NCBI RefSeq assembly: GCF_006711645.1
Contig: NZ_CP041247.1
Location: 868,001 to 932,000 of the forward strand
Direction of reading: 5' to 3'
Origin: Klebsiella electrica
Lineage (GTDB): Bacteria > Pseudomonadota > Gammaproteobacteria > Enterobacterales > Enterobacteriaceae
Length of the DNA: 64,000 bases
Shown here: positions 17,235-64,000 of the stretch, piece by piece
Layout of the letters: each line of letters begins with the position of its first letter
Numbering within the stretch: position 1 is the stretch's first letter
Program-made: the position numbers and the translations under genes
Notes under the pieces: generated by a model
The model's database searches: none
Seen by the model: the letters and a program-made list of their open reading frames with translations, nothing else
Told to the model about the DNA's origin: nothing

Positions 17235-19394
17235 ATGCTGTTGGCATTTTTCAGGCTGTTGTTCAAAGGGTTGTATCGGGTCAGATTGACCGGTGACACG
17301 CAGCCCTTGCAACAACAAAAGGTGTTGATCACCCCGAATCACGTCTCGTTCCTCGATGGGATCCTGCTCGCCTTATTCCTGCCCGTCCGACCGGTCTTTG
17401 CGGTGTACAGTTCTATCAGCCAGCGCTGGTTTATGCGCGTGCTGACGCCGCTTATCGACTTTGTCCCGCTCGACCCGACGAAACCGATGTCGATAAAACA
17501 CCTGGTGCGGCTGATTGAGCAGGGGCGTCCGGTGGTTATCTTCCCGGAAGGGCGTATCTCGGTTAGCGGTTCGCTGATGAAAATCTATGACGGGGCGGCG
17601 TTCGTGGCCGCAAAGTCGCAGGCCACCATTATCCCACTGCGTATCGAAGGCGCGGAGTTGACTCCGTTCAGCCGCCTCAAAGGGCTGGTCAAACGCCGTC
17701 TGTTCCCACGGATCCGGCTGCATTTGCTGCCGCCAACCCGCATTGAAATGCCTCAGGCGCCTCGCGCCCGCGATCGCCGCAAAATTGCCGGAGAGATGCT
17801 GCACCAGATCATGATGGAAGCGCGCATGGCGGTGCGCCCGCGAGAAACGCTGTATCAATCGCTGCTGGCGGCGCAGGATCGCTTCGGGGCGCGCAAACAT
17901 TGCGTGGAAGATATTAATTTCCAGCCAGATACCTACCGCAAGCTGCTGACTAAAACCCTCTTCGTGGCGCGCATCCTCGAAAAATACAGCACGCAGGGCG
18001 AGAAAATCGGCCTGATGTTGCCCAACGCCGGAATCAGCGCGGCGGTGATTTTTGGCGCCATTGCCCGCGGGCGGATTCCAGCGATGATGAACTACACCGC
18101 CGGGGTAAAAGGGCTGAGCAGTGCGATAACCGCCGCTGAAATTAAAACCGTATTTACCTCCCGCACTTTCCTTGATAAAGGCAAACTCTGGCACCTGCCG
18201 GAGCAGCTCACGCAGGTGCGTTGGGTCTTCCTTGAAGACCTGAAGGGCGACATCACGACCGGCGATAAGCTGTGGATCTTCGGCCACCTGCTGGCGCCGA
18301 AGCTGGCGCAGGTCAAACAGCAGCCGGAAGATGCGGCGATGATCCTGTTTACCTCCGGTTCGGAAGGCAACCCGAAAGGCGTGGTGCACAGCCACAAAAG
18401 CCTGCTGGCTAACGTCGAACAGATTAAAACGATTGCTGACTTTACCGCCAACGATCGCTTTATGTCGGCGTTGCCGCTGTTCCACTCTTTTGGCCTGACG
18501 GTGGGGCTGCTGACGCCGCTGTTTACCGGTGCAGAAGTGTTTCTCTATCCCAGCCCGCTGCACTACCGCGTGGTGCCGGAGCTGGTCTACGATCGTAACT
18601 GTACGGTGCTGTTCGGGACCTCGACCTTTCTCGCGAACTACGCGCGCTTTGCCAACCCGTATGATTTCTACCGTTTGCGCTACGTGGTGGCCGGGGCGGA
18701 AAAGCTTCAGGAGAGCACGAAGCAACTGTGGCAGGACAAATTTGGCCTGCGCATTCTCGAAGGCTATGGCGTCACCGAATGTGCGCCGGTGGTATCGATT
18801 AACGTCCCGATGGCGGCGAAGGTGGGCACCGTCGGGCGTATTCTGCCGGGGATGGATGCGCGCCTGCTGGCGATGCCGGGTATTGCAGAGGGCGGTCGCC
18901 TGCAGTTAAAAGGGCCGAACATCATGAATGGCTATCTGCGGGTGGAGAATCCGGGCGTGCTGGAAGCGCCGGCGGCGGAAAATCAGCATGGCGAAGTGGA
19001 AAGCGGCTGGTATGACACCGGGGATATCGTCACCTTTGACGAGCAGGGCTACGTGCGCATTCAGGGACGCGCTAAGCGCTTCGCGAAAATCGCCGGCGAA
19101 ATGGTGTCGCTGGAAATGGTCGAACAGGTGGCGTTGGCCGTCTCACCTGACAAGATGCATGCCACGGCGATTAAACAAGATGCCGCTAAAGGCGAGGCGC
19201 TGGTGCTTTTTACCACCGATAATGAACTGAACCGTGAAAAACTGCTGCGTTACGCCCGTGAGCATGGCGTGCCGGAGCTGGCGGTACCGCGCGACATTCG
19301 CTGGCTGAAGCAGTTGCCGGTTCTCGGCAGCGGCAAGCCGGACTTTGTCACCCTTAAAGGTATGGTTGAGCAGACGGAAGATTCTGATGAGTGA
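17235..19394 (+). CDS. aas: Lysophospholipid acyltransferase / acyl-ACP synthetase (bifunctional)
   Basis: A 719-residue inner-membrane enzyme that re-acylates lyso-phosphatidylethanolamine and ligates fatty acids to ACP. The N-terminal PlsC-like domain has the NHVSFLDG catalytic motif (about residues 36-43) and FPEGRIS. The C-terminal AMP-binding synthetase domain has [29 protein letters not shown] and YDTGDIV. Length equals E. coli Aas. The gene overlaps lplT by 8 bases, so import of lysophospholipid and its re-acylation are produced together. Confidence 0.97.
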
Positions 19395-60209: not shown

Positions 60210-62153
60210 TTACTCGGCGTGCAGCAGCAGGCCCGCTTCGCTGTTGGTGGCCTCGCCGTACCAGACCGCTTCGCGGACTGATACCGGCTTGCCAATCAGA
60301 CCCAGCGCATAAAAACGGTCGGCAATAGTTTGCTGCGCGCGGATCACTTTGAGGTCCATCATCCGCGGGCGATGGCTGCGGCGGGCCAACGCCAGCGAGA
60401 GCGATGCGACGTTAATCCCCAGCTCCGCCGCCAGCAGCCCGGCGGCTTCATCCCGCCGACGATCGATAAACTGCCCGGTTTGCGTCAGCTCGTGCAGCAG
60501 GCGCTGCATGATATCGCCGTGGCGCGTCACGTAGTCGCGGCGCGACAGGTAGAACTGATGGTTTTGCACCCGACCTTCGCCGTTGGCCACCACCCGTAGC
60601 TCCCCGGTGTGTTCGGCGTCGCTTAACAGCGGATCCCACATCATCCAGGCATCCACCGCCAGATAGTCGCTGGCGGTCAGCGGGTATTTGGGCGGGGTGT
60701 AGACAATCCTGACGTCATTTAAGCCCAGCCCCGCCTCCTCGAGAATCTGCAACAGCAGCCAGTGTACGTTTGACCCTTTATTCAGCGCAATACGTTTCCC
60801 GCGCAAATCGGCAATTGTGCGGATCGCGCTATGCTGCGGGACAACCATCGCGACGCTTTGCGGCGCGGGCGGTTCCCACGCCACGTACACCAGCTCGCTG
60901 TTGCTGGACTGGGCAAAGACCGGCGGCGCTTCGCCGGTGGTGCCAAAATCGATTTCGTGACAGGCGAGGGCGTGCAGCAGCTGCGGTCCGGCGGGAAATT
61001 CGCTCCACAACACGCTGACGCCAAGATGGGCGAAGGCGCTCTCCAGACTCTGCCGGGCCTTTAAAATGCCCAGATTGCCAAAGCGCTGATAGCCAATTCG
61101 TAACTCGCGGTCGGCGGAAACGGCGCCGGACAGCGGGCGCGGCGGGATTTCTGGTCGCCGACGGCTTTTAATCAGTCCAATGTTGGCCAGCTGCGTGCGT
61201 AAGGTATGGCGACTGATGCCCAGCAGCGCCGCCGCCTGACTTTGGTTGTCATCGCAGCGGGCCATCGCCCCGCGGATCAGCGCCCCGGTCATGCGCTCCC
61301 ACAGCGCCTCGCCGGGTTGGTTAAGCTGCTGATAGATAAAACTATCCAGTTCGTTGTCCGTGGCGGTCGCCGGCGTATCGTGCAACGTGCTCAGCCGCAG
61401 CTGCGCGGGCGTGATCTCCTCCTCTTTGCTGAGCAGAACCGCGTTATGCAATGTATTTTCCAGTTCGCGGATATTGCCGGGCCACGGATAGTCCATCAGT
61501 CTCGCCAGCGTTTCCGGCGCCAGGCGGCGGGTCGGGCGGCCCAGGCGGCGGGCATATAGCGTTAAAAAGTGATTGGCCAGCTGAGGAATATCCTGGCGGC
61601 GCTGGCGCAGCGGCGGCAGCGGCACAATGGCGATATTCAAACGGTAGTAGAGGTCTTCGCGAAAGCGGCGTTCGCGGATCGCCTGGGCTAAATCGACATG
61701 GGTGGCGGCGATGACCCGCACATTCACTTTGATGGCCTTGCGCGAACCGACGCGGGTAATTTCCCGCTCCTGCAGCACGCGCAGCAGCTTAACCTGCAGC
61801 GGCAGGCTGAGTTCGCCGATCTCATCGAGCAGCAGGGTCCCGCCCTCGGCGGCTTCAAACCAGCCGGGGTGGCTCTGCACCGCGCCGGTAAAGGCGCCTT
61901 TTTCATGGCCGAAGAGTTCAGCTTCCGCCAGGCTTTCGGTCAGCGCGCCGCAGTTAACGGCAAGAAACGGCTGGTGGCGACGCGTGCTGTGATGATGAAG
62001 ATAGCGGGCGACCACCTCTTTACCGGTGCCGGTTTCGCCGACGATCAGCACGGTGGCTTCCGTGGGCGCCAGTTTATCCAGCAGGCTCTGAAACGCTTTC
62101 GACGCCGGGTCGATGAGCACGGGCGTATCGGACAGGGATTCAGGATTGAGCAT
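60210..62153 (-). CDS. Sigma-54 enhancer-binding protein fused to a C-terminal SsuA-like sulfonate-binding domain
   Basis: A 647-residue protein with an unusual domain order. Residues ~10-240 are a sigma-54-interacting AAA+ ATPase: Walker A GETGTGKE (39-46), GAFTGA loop (86-91), Walker B TLLLDEIGE (106-114), WPGNIREL (224-231). A Fis-type HTH follows (SQAAALLGISRHTLRTQLAN, 305-324). Residues ~348-620 match SsuA-type periplasmic sulfonate-binding proteins (SEFPAGPQLLHALACHEIDF, GTTGEAPPVFAQ, GKRIALNKGSN, VDAWMMWDPL) but without a signal peptide. No N-terminal receiver or GAF domain is present. A GGAGGT ribosome site precedes the ATG. Inferred role: a cytoplasmic sulfonate sensor that activates the divergent ssuD-type gene. 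Confidence 0.88.
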   Translation of the reverse strand: MLNPESLSDTPVLIDPASKAFQSLLDKLAPTEATVLIVGETGTGKEVVARYLHHHSTRRHQPFLAVNCGALTESLAEAELFGHEKGAFTGAVQSHPGWFEAAEGGTLLLDEIGELSLPLQVKLLRVLQEREITRVGSRKAIKVNVRVIAATHVDLAQAIRERRFREDLYYRLNIAIVPLPPLRQRRQDIPQLANHFLTLYARRLGRPTRRLAPETLARLMDYPWPGNIRELENTLHNAVLLSKEEEITPAQLRLSTLHDTPATATDNELDSFIYQQLNQPGEALWERMTGALIRGAMARCDDNQSQAAALLGISRHTLRTQLANIGLIKSRRRPEIPPRPLSGAVSADRELRIGYQRFGNLGILKARQSLESAFAHLGVSVLWSEFPAGPQLLHALACHEIDFGTTGEAPPVFAQSSNSELVYVAWEPPAPQSVAMVVPQHSAIRTIADLRGKRIALNKGSNVHWLLLQILEEAGLGLNDVRIVYTPPKYPLTASDYLAVDAWMMWDPLLSDAEHTGELRVVANGEGRVQNHQFYLSRRDYVTRHGDIMQRLLHELTQTGQFIDRRRDEAAGLLAAELGINVASLSLALARRSHRPRMMDLKVIRAQQTIADRFYALGLIGKPVSVREAVWYGEATNSEAGLLLHAE

Positions 62154-62424
62154 GGCGGACCTCCGTTAAATGACGCTTTGAACTTATCCTTTGCCGGCGG
62201 CAGACACCAGAGGGGGACGCCGCCGGTTTGCTGCAAAACCGACAGCGCCCACGCAGGCGCTGACGCATTTGCAACAGCTGAGACGCCGGACGTGTTTTTT
62301 AATACATTGATTTTGTTTTATTTATTTTCATCTCGTCGTTGGCACGATAATCGCTAACAGTCATATAACCAAATTAAAACATCTCTTCGATAAATATCGA
62401 ATATGGTTATATAGGAAATGGATA
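62154..62424. promoter_or_regulatory. Divergent control region of the sulfonate locus (271 bp)
   Basis: Non-coding DNA between the sigma-54 activator and the ssuD-type gene. It holds a -24/-12 promoter near 62339-62355 and, about 100 bp upstream of that, an odd palindrome TTTGCTGCAAA (62227-62237) and a related TTTGCAA at 62268-62274 that could be activator-binding sites. The activator's own promoter was not identified. Confidence 0.5.
62339..62355 (+). promoter_or_regulatory. Sigma-54 (-24/-12) promoter of the ssuD-type gene
   Basis: TTGGCACGATAATCGCT matches the sigma-54 consensus TGGCACG-N4-TTGCW with one mismatch (TCGC for TTGC) and exactly 10 bases between the invariant GG and GC. It faces the ssuD-type gene, about 70 bp upstream of its start. 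Confidence 0.75.
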
Positions 62425-63597
62425 ATGACGCAGAAAGCGAACGATAAGATCAATGTGTTCTGGTTTTTGCCCACCCACGGCGATGGCCGTTATCTGGGCA
62501 CCACTGAAGGCGGCCGCCCGGTGGATCTACCTTATCTCCAGCAGGTCGCGCTGGCCGCCGATAGCCTTGGCTATTACGGCGTCCTGATTCCGACCGGAAA
62601 AAGCTGCGAGGACTCCTGGCTGGTGGCGTCGGCGCTGGCGCCGTTGACCCGTCGCCTGCGTTATCTGGTGGCGGTGCGCCCTGGGCTACAGCCGCCGACG
62701 CTGGCGGCGCGAATGGCGGCTACCCTCGATCGTTTGTCGGAGGGGCGGCTGCTGATCAACGTGGTGACCGGCGGCGATCCGGTGGAGAACAAAGGCGATG
62801 GGATCTTCCTCAATCACAGTGAACGCTACCAGGTGACCCGCGAATTTCTCGACGTGTACTCCCGTTTGCTGAAAGGCGAAAAGGTGGACTATCGCGGCAA
62901 GCATATTCATGTCGAAGGGGCGGAGGTGCTGTTTCCGCCGGTGCAGGAAGATGGCCCGCCGCTCTATTTTGGCGGCTCGTCAGACGACGCCATCGACGTC
63001 GCCGCTGAGCATATCGACAGCTACTTAACCTGGGGCGAGCCGCCGGAAAAAGTGGCGGAAAAGCTGGCTATCGTCAGTGAACGCGCCGCCGCCCGTGGAC
63101 GCACCCTGCAATACGGTATTCGCCTGCACGTGATTGTCCGTGAAACGGAAGAGGAGGCCTGGGCCGCCGCCGACCGGCTGATTGCCCACCTGGATGATGA
63201 CACCATTGCCCAGGCGCAGAAGATTTTTGCGCGCATGGATTCCGCGGGCCAGGCGCGGATGAGCGCCCTGCACAACGGTTCCCGCGACAATCTGCGTATC
63301 GCGCCAAATCTGTGGGCCGGCGTTGGGCTGGTGCGCGGCGGGGCGGGGACGGCGCTGGTGGGCAATCCGCAGCAGGTGGCGGAGCGCATCCGTGAATATC
63401 AGGCGCTGGGGATCACTAACTTTATCTTCTCCGGCTACCCGCATCTGGAAGAGGCGCACCGCTTTGCCGAGCTGGTGATGCCGCTGCTGCCGCTGGCCAG
63501 CAACGCGCAGCCAAAGGCGCGCGGTGTCAATACCGGGCCGTTCGGTGAAACCATCGGCGGCGATAAGCGCCCGGTAAAACAGGTCAGCGCCAGCTGA
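62425..63597 (+). CDS. ssuD: FMNH2-dependent alkanesulfonate monooxygenase, SsuD family
   Basis: A 390-residue bacterial-luciferase-fold monooxygenase that releases sulfite from organosulfonates using reduced flavin. Conserved SsuD landmarks: [17 protein letters not shown], the active-site Cys in [20 protein letters not shown], the His in [14 protein letters not shown], and [11 protein letters not shown] with the mobile-loop region [14 protein letters not shown]. It is clearly related to but distinct from E. coli SsuD; the exact sulfonate, such as a larger or methyl-type one, is not readable. No flavin reductase (SsuE) lies within the window. It is probably transcribed from the sigma-54 promoter upstream. 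Confidence 0.88.
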
Positions 63598-63643: not shown

Positions 63644-64000
63644 ATGCCCGCTGAACCTCACATCGTTATTGTCGGCGGCGGCTTTAGCGGCGCGGCGGTG
63701 GCGATTCATCTGCTTGGCCTGATGCCGCAAGGGCTACGGGTGACGCTGCTGGAGCCGCGTAGCGTTGTTGGCGCAGGCGTCGCCTATTCCACCGCGGAAC
63801 CCAGCCACCGCATCAACGTGCCCGCCTCGCGGATGCAGTTGGCCGGTGAGGAAGAGGGCGCTTTTGACCGCTGGTACCGTAGTCAGCCTGCTTTTGCTGA
63901 CGACCCGCAGGCGCGGCGTGAAGACGGCGCGCTGTACCCCCAGCGCGGCCAGTTTGGGCGCTATGTCAGCCAGCGTTTCGCCGCGGCGGTACAGGCGAGC
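63644..64000 (+). CDS. FAD/NAD(P)-binding protein, N-terminal part (cut by window end)
   Basis: The first 119 codons of an FAD/NAD(P)-binding protein. The dinucleotide-binding motif IVIVGGGFSGAAVAIHLL starts at residue 7, followed by GAGVAYSTAEPSHRINVPAS, the signature of the NAD_binding_9-type family. It lies 46 bp after the ssuD-type gene in the same direction and may act with it, for example in redox supply; that is inference. The ATG is preceded by AAGGCGG. A 14-codon frame (63610-63654) overlaps its start. Confidence 0.8.
   Translation, partial: MPAEPHIVIVGGGFSGAAVAIHLLGLMPQGLRVTLLEPRSVVGAGVAYSTAEPSHRINVPASRMQLAGEEEGAFDRWYRSQPAFADDPQARREDGALYPQRGQFGRYVSQRFAAAVQAS

Follow-up and report, generated by a model that had tools for sequence, protein, structure and literature searches.

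Toward its end, the window (the whole 64,000-nucleotide stretch of Klebsiella electrica DNA analysed here) carries a minus-strand gene for a sigma-54 activator that continues, in the same chain, into a domain of the SsuA type. Facing it on the plus strand is a paralog of ssuD followed by a gene for an FAD/NAD(P)-binding protein, and between the two divergent genes lie two palindromes and a putative -24/-12 promoter (Table 1).

Table 1 Features of the fused-regulator locus (positions in the window)
Feature	Positions	Strand	Basis
Gene of the fused regulator (647 aa), a sigma-54 activator with C-terminal SsuA-type domain	60210..62153	-	Profile matches
SsuA-type substrate-binding domain, residues 348-633	60255..61112	-	Profile, alignment and fold match
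Variable linker, residues 329-347	61113..61169	-	23.4% mean identity to orthologs; pLDDT <50
Fis-type HTH, model helices 284-299, 304-311 and 315-325	61179..61304	-	HTH_8 (292-319) and structure model
AAA+ domain for sigma-54 activation, with its lid (residues 17-265); Walker A and GAFTGA present	61359..62105	-	Profile match
Upstream palindrome 1 (weak, 10/14 consensus positions)	62229..62244		Intergenic alignment
Upstream palindrome 2 (12/14 positions of TGTTGCA-N2-TGCAACA)	62261..62276		Intergenic alignment
Putative -24/-12 sigma-54-type promoter aimed at ssuD, ~70 bp before the ATG	62340..62355	+	Pattern match
ssuD paralog, encoding an FMNH2-dependent alkanesulfonate monooxygenase; heads the divergent cluster	62425..63597	+	TIGR03565
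FAD/NAD(P)-binding protein (NAD_binding_9), second gene, running past the window end	63644..64000	+	ORFs read

The domain search agreed with the initial annotation, which had read an AAA+ domain with GAFTGA followed by a Fis-type HTH (HTH_8, 26.4 bits against a cut-off of 22). Walker A, Walker B and GAFTGA patterns were found in all 17 aligned rows, our own protein counted, and cruder patterns for the HTH and the arginine finger in 14/17 and 12/17 of these rows, respectively. An AAA+ domain with Walker A and GAFTGA, a Fis-type HTH and, as judged by sequence, a -24/-12 promoter with upstream sites are features of a bacterial enhancer-binding protein. The usual order in such activators is an N-terminal regulatory domain, the AAA+ domain and a C-terminal DNA-binding domain, some members lacking a domain, as outlined in a passage of PMC7175178, but the fused regulator does not follow it. 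Only about 16 residues, with no N-terminal sensor domain, precede its AAA+ domain, and the sensor-like domain comes after the HTH, a reversal that had been recognized from the start. Because an N-terminal regulatory domain is absent, the C-terminal domain is the sole candidate sensor within the chain.

This C-terminal domain scored 189.6 with TIGR01728, above the curated cut-off of 163.5, and 247.8 with the narrower PRK11553, under its cut-off of 299. Its predicted model matched the fold of ligand-bound SsuA in the structural comparison that the initial annotation had proposed; in the whole-protein model (pTM 0.50) the domain arrangement is unreliable. The resemblance to SsuA and, with it, the proposed recruitment of a transport-type domain are thus borne out by homology and by fold. 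SsuA itself is exported and works with an ABC permease, whereas the domain described here is internal, behind the AAA+ domain and the HTH, so that it would have no export signal, and neither ssuB nor ssuC was found among the ORFs read beside the regulator gene.

Full-length fused orthologs were detected in 17 of the 149 genomes sampled from the Enterobacteriaceae (148 genera). At E 1e-100, 18 of these genomes matched, the remaining one, a Shimwellia (G109), having a protein that stops after the HTH. Within the same genus, 16 of 20 genomes had the fused form. Among the best 80 of 566 relatives in a scan of named genomes, 28 were fused by a motif test and a 29th, from Acidisoma silvae (L080), was fused with a degraded GAFTGA; these loci comprise 24 from enterobacteria, one each from Methylocystis, a Methylocystaceae bacterium and Acidisoma, and two from Azospirillum. 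Plasmid records add fused genes of Azospirillum sp. B510 and Methylocystis iwaonis. Since the family sample and the named-genome scan share some genomes, their counts are not additive. At E 1e-85, the fused protein was found only in our own genome in a class sample of 369 genomes, and only in three genomes of the same family in a phylum sample of 398. On the question of prevalence raised by the initial annotation, these samples indicate that the architecture recurs in the family and the genus and is rare elsewhere, the fused genes of some alphaproteobacteria included. A search of the open-licence literature (titles and abstract openings of the best matches in longer lists) returned no description of this fusion.

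The same recurrence bears on a trivial explanation that the initial annotation had itself named, the joining of two separate genes by a sequencing error or a faulty gene model. Databases do name the relatives either as activators or as sulfonate-binding proteins, as if there were two genes, but the single open frame is repeated across the family and genus genomes counted above and in several alphaproteobacteria; we therefore rejected this explanation, whose probability we consider close to nil.

Several database and plasmid copies depart from the full-length form. Among the 120 matches listed, 17 are 579 aa long (P0007-P0016, P0020, P0022 and P0025-P0029); in one of them, P0013 (K. pneumoniae, 1000 contigs), comparison by eye showed that 68 AAA+ residues are missing in frame, and this protein is probably inactive as an activator. 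The 647-aa cluster P0024 has 2847 member sequences. The Acidisoma silvae protein (L080 5924-8041) may no longer work with sigma-54 because of its degraded GAFTGA. A second fused copy, on another plasmid of Methylocystis iwaonis (L075 5001-7850), is broken by an IS5-family transposase gene, and an enterobacteria-like copy on plasmid p1 of Pseudomonas silvicola (L071 8001-10000; 74.7% in the activator half) is matched in several separate pieces and seems to be broken as well.

The divergent gene, already taken for ssuD-type in the initial annotation, matched TIGR03565 at 617.4 bits, above the cut-off of 518.2. Downstream of the FAD/NAD(P)-binding protein gene follow genes for an NtaA/DmoA-type monooxygenase, a MetNIQ-like transporter, an MFS transporter and an SfnB-like oxidoreductase. 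The end of the cluster is taken by a free-standing SsuA on the opposite strand (positions 17972-18907 of the 20-kb stretch L009); no ssuB or ssuC was seen among the ORFs read near it, and its partner may be the permease of the ordinary ssu operon. This ordinary ssuEADCB operon is located elsewhere in the genome, with an ssuD 65% identical to the paralog, so the proposed switch would serve a second, ssuD-containing organosulfur cluster.

At E 1e-120, the ssuD matches in the 149 genomes separated into a group of 78-100% identity to the paralog, present in 18 genomes, and the ordinary type of 62-68%. The former was found in all 17 genomes with the fused gene and in one of the 132 others (G011), a co-occurrence for which Fisher's p = 1.9e-21 is not a true probability because the genomes share ancestry. 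In each of the four genomes of the genus that lack the fused gene, there was a single ssuD match, of 65-66%. Among the best 80 of 566 relatives, the paralog lies divergently beside the fused gene in 23 of the 24 enterobacterial loci; at the other locus, L107, no ssuD was seen. The smallest cluster observed (L030) consists of the fused gene, SsuA and ssuD. Of the alphaproteobacterial fused loci, L077 and L079 have an ssuD of 56-62% nearby, the stretches read of L076, L078 and L080 show none above 50%, and both ssuD and sfnG are near the fused gene on the plasmids of Methylocystis iwaonis and Azospirillum B510. In G011 (L156 9493-11342), the ssuD-paralog cluster is headed by an ssuE-like gene; the fused regulator and the palindrome sites are absent from the 19 kb read, so this cluster is probably controlled otherwise.

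The region between the divergent genes is conserved in its layout. At the K. electrica locus, palindrome 2 lies 32 bp past palindrome 1 and 79 bp ahead of the -24 element. We aligned 18 intergenic regions, those of the 17 fused genomes and of G109, and found the -24/-12 pattern in 17 of them, while in 200 rounds of shuffling it turned up on average in 0.065 of 18 and never in more than 1. The 18th region (L026) had been shortened by the choice of start codon, and the match is present in the longer stretch L031. The two palindromes are spaced by 31-32 bp in 18/18 regions, and the second is 78-81 bp from the -24 element in 17. Their presence in 18/18 regions against a shuffle mean of 0.015 is partly circular, because the consensus was derived from the same regions. 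Throughout L009 the ssuD promoter is the only match of the -24/-12 pattern, the free-standing ssuA having none of its own, and rpoN is present in the genome. The sigma-54 control of the divergent gene suggested by the initial annotation therefore has its expected sequence signs, a conserved -24/-12 element and paired upstream sites.

Comparable sites were seen outside the enterobacteria. In three of the fused alphaproteobacterial loci (L072, L074 and L079), a palindrome lies ~87-88 bp from a -24/-12 match and in L077 at a greater distance, and the scan of L076 gave none. Among six unfused loci scanned, palindromes of the TGTTGCA-N2-TGCAACA kind were present in L065 and L070 and absent from L059, L060, L061 and L063. 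We also considered a wide regulon defined by the palindrome and discarded it: with up to 3 mismatches, the genome contains 288 matches per strand compared with 248 for a control pattern, so the 16-bp palindrome cannot name further targets.

For the ligand site we relied on SsuA of X. citri, in which the sulfonate is held by Gln36, Gly68, Gly86 and Ser141 and Trp185 faces the pocket, as described in part of PMC3839906. The equivalents by alignment are Gln356, Gly389, Gly407, Asn462 and Trp506 of the fused regulator, and all five are identical in 45/45 fused rows (41 different sequences; L077 and L078, for which the motif cut failed, were left out of this set). Among the free-standing SsuAs sampled, the Gln, the two Gly and the Trp are identical in 77/77, and the Ser/Asn position is Asn in 75/77; these 77 proteins were picked by similarity, which limits the counts to this sample. 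By alignment, therefore, the sulfonate site is retained in the fused regulators, which share with SsuA (PDB 2x26, 3e4r, 3ksj and 3ksx) whole-domain homology, the fold and the headgroup residues.

Two positions differ from SsuA. Position 492, Arg in 77/77 sampled SsuAs, is Leu or Ala in 45/45 fused rows, and position 434, Glu in 77/77, is Val or Ala in 43/45. The 41 enterobacterial rows have Val (40) or Ala (1) at position 434, and the four others have Val in two and Glu in two. Position 434 aligns with Glu106 of TauA, a hinge residue in whose absence, according to PMC6906117, no taurine binding could be measured. The position of TauA Asp205 proved uninformative for specificity, being Gln in 71/77 SsuAs as in most fused rows. 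Because of the changes at positions 492 and 434, the ligand may differ from that of ordinary SsuA, or the site may have drifted. These changes could also mean that the domain reads another small sulfur anion, such as a sulfinate, sulfite or a product of the neighbouring monooxygenases, or that it works as a brake under plentiful sulfur, in place of a switch induced by sulfonate, and such a role would fit with the several other sulfur genes in the cluster and with sfnG near two alphaproteobacterial fused genes. We regard it as unlikely, though worth keeping in view, because the sulfonate-headgroup residues are retained in every fused row and ssuD is the usual neighbour, also in the smallest cluster, L030.

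A natural contrast to the fused form is provided by Shimwellia. In the part compared, the G109 regulator and P0145 of Shimwellia pseudoproteus are identical, and a second database protein ending after the HTH (P0148) groups with it. The palindromes, the promoter and the later genes of the cluster are all retained around the G109 gene. Neither the SsuA half nor the ssuD paralog could be traced at a significant level within the surrounding 20 kb, and no ssuD was found genome-wide at E 1e-60. If the domain senses the SsuD substrate, this joint absence of the SsuA half and ssuD, seen in one lineage, is to be expected. The same protein, with its sites retained in the absence of an SsuA domain, can be read differently, as can the P. 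aeruginosa relatives, which consist of AAA+ and HTH only: the SsuA-type domain may be a passenger, and the activator may be controlled only by its amount, as expected of a sensorless SfnR-like protein. However, a passenger domain should decay across this many genera, and the SsuA-type domain, with its binding residues kept, is more conserved (66.7% mean identity to orthologs) than the HTH region (49.2%), the AAA+ domain having 79.3% and the linker the lowest value (Table 1). This conservation weakens the passenger explanation, and we consider it improbable, more so than the sensing of another anion. As a separate case, the 348-aa database activator P0146 groups with the fused protein of L025 and has a different C-terminal part with no SsuA half.

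The nearest unfused proteins are of the Shimwellia type (63-66% identity), followed by other database proteins at ~58-60%. Among 11 further unfused loci, an ssuD of at least 64% is near in 4 (L060, L061, L063 and L065) and not in the other 7, and a Burkholderia relative sits among tricarballylate genes; since only some unfused relatives are near ssuD or msuE, the label SfnR-like rests on part of them. In a tree of the SsuA half, all 45 fused rows fall on one side of a branch (99/96) separating them from the 77 free-standing SsuAs, with long branches flagged. The activator-half tree requires 7 label changes, the alphaproteobacterial fused rows being intermixed with unfused ones. A single fused clade was not rejected (p-AU 0.185) with a reduced row set in which the Shimwellia-type rows were counted as fused; this second activator tree left out our own paralogs and 12 named rows, including the fused L080 and the unfused P0146. 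Judging from these trees, one fusion with some losses and repeated fusion of related halves are both possible origins.

The closest described system is SfnR. Over the AAA+ domain and HTH, the P. aeruginosa relative shares 52% identity with the fused regulator; it likewise has no N-terminal sensor, and its gene comes after those for MsuE, SsuD and an acyl-CoA dehydrogenase-like protein, the place at which sfnR is described in Pseudomonas in an excerpt of PMC8234197. A similar palindrome precedes P. aeruginosa msuE; the -24/-12 pattern had no match in that stretch. The relative differs in ending after the HTH at 376 aa, with no ligand domain, whereas an SfnR consisting of AAA+ and HTH only, beside sfn/msu genes, does not describe the fused regulator, which has the extra domain and the adjacent ssuD paralog; two of the alphaproteobacterial fused genes do stand near sfnG. 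SfnR, which functions in the use of dimethyl sulfone or methanesulfonate and has been studied best among the relatives, is called CysB-regulated in a title in the reference list of PMC8234197, and CysB could therefore sit above the fused-regulator switch, which may thus not be separate from Cbl/CysB control as the initial annotation had proposed.

In E. coli, the ssu and tau genes are regulated by Cbl and CysB, which are of the LysR type, and no sigma-54 activator is known to take part; the system described here likewise concerns sulfonate genes and differs in just this respect. The C-terminal domains of the cyanobacterial transporter proteins NrtC and CmpC have the same broad fold (matches to 9uak and 8wm7), and PMC6603209 presents them as a substrate-binding-type domain added as a cytoplasmic regulatory domain. 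By analogy, they offer a precedent for a binding-protein-like domain as a cytoplasmic regulator, although they act on a transporter and not on transcription, and with nitrate or bicarbonate and not sulfonates.

Taken together, we propose, with a probability of roughly 0.6, that we are dealing with an SfnR-related one-component sigma-54 activator whose SsuA-type domain, behind the HTH, is a cytoplasmic organosulfonate sensor that makes the ssuD promoter dependent on ligand. The fused regulator would bind the two palindromes between the divergent genes and assemble there. On binding a cytoplasmic organosulfonate, the SsuA-type domain would close and thereby alter the assembly or the ATPase state of the AAA+ ring. 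With the C-terminal domain in the right ligand state, the ring would drive ATP-dependent opening of sigma-54 RNA polymerase at the ssuD promoter and so activate ssuD together with the genes downstream. Of the possible signs, the likeliest is restraint of the AAA+ ring by the ligand-free domain, with release on closure around the ligand. That the palindromes are bound, that a sulfonate is the ligand, and that its binding is coupled to activity with this sign is what we infer from the sequences, and gating from behind the HTH is the most economical reading of them. The chances seem about even that the fused proteins form a distinct class of sigma-54 activators, of SfnR-like and SsuA-type origin, possibly arisen once and present today in enterobacteria and several alphaproteobacteria, that senses cytoplasmic organosulfonate and whose conversion from a transporter part into a switch is marked by loss of the Arg (in all) and the Glu (in most members).

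The gating of sigma-54 activators usually acts from the N-terminal side. If our proposal is true, the C-terminal side can also gate an AAA+ ring, with the HTH in between, and a family controlled in this manner would add a new layout of regulation to a textbook machine and provide a ready-made sulfonate biosensor. The proposal makes testable which losses and gains turn a transporter binding protein into a transcriptional switch. It would also explain how the second sulfonate cluster, whose regulator is now annotated under two conflicting names, is activated in Klebsiella, Pantoea, Serratia and Erwinia-type bacteria.
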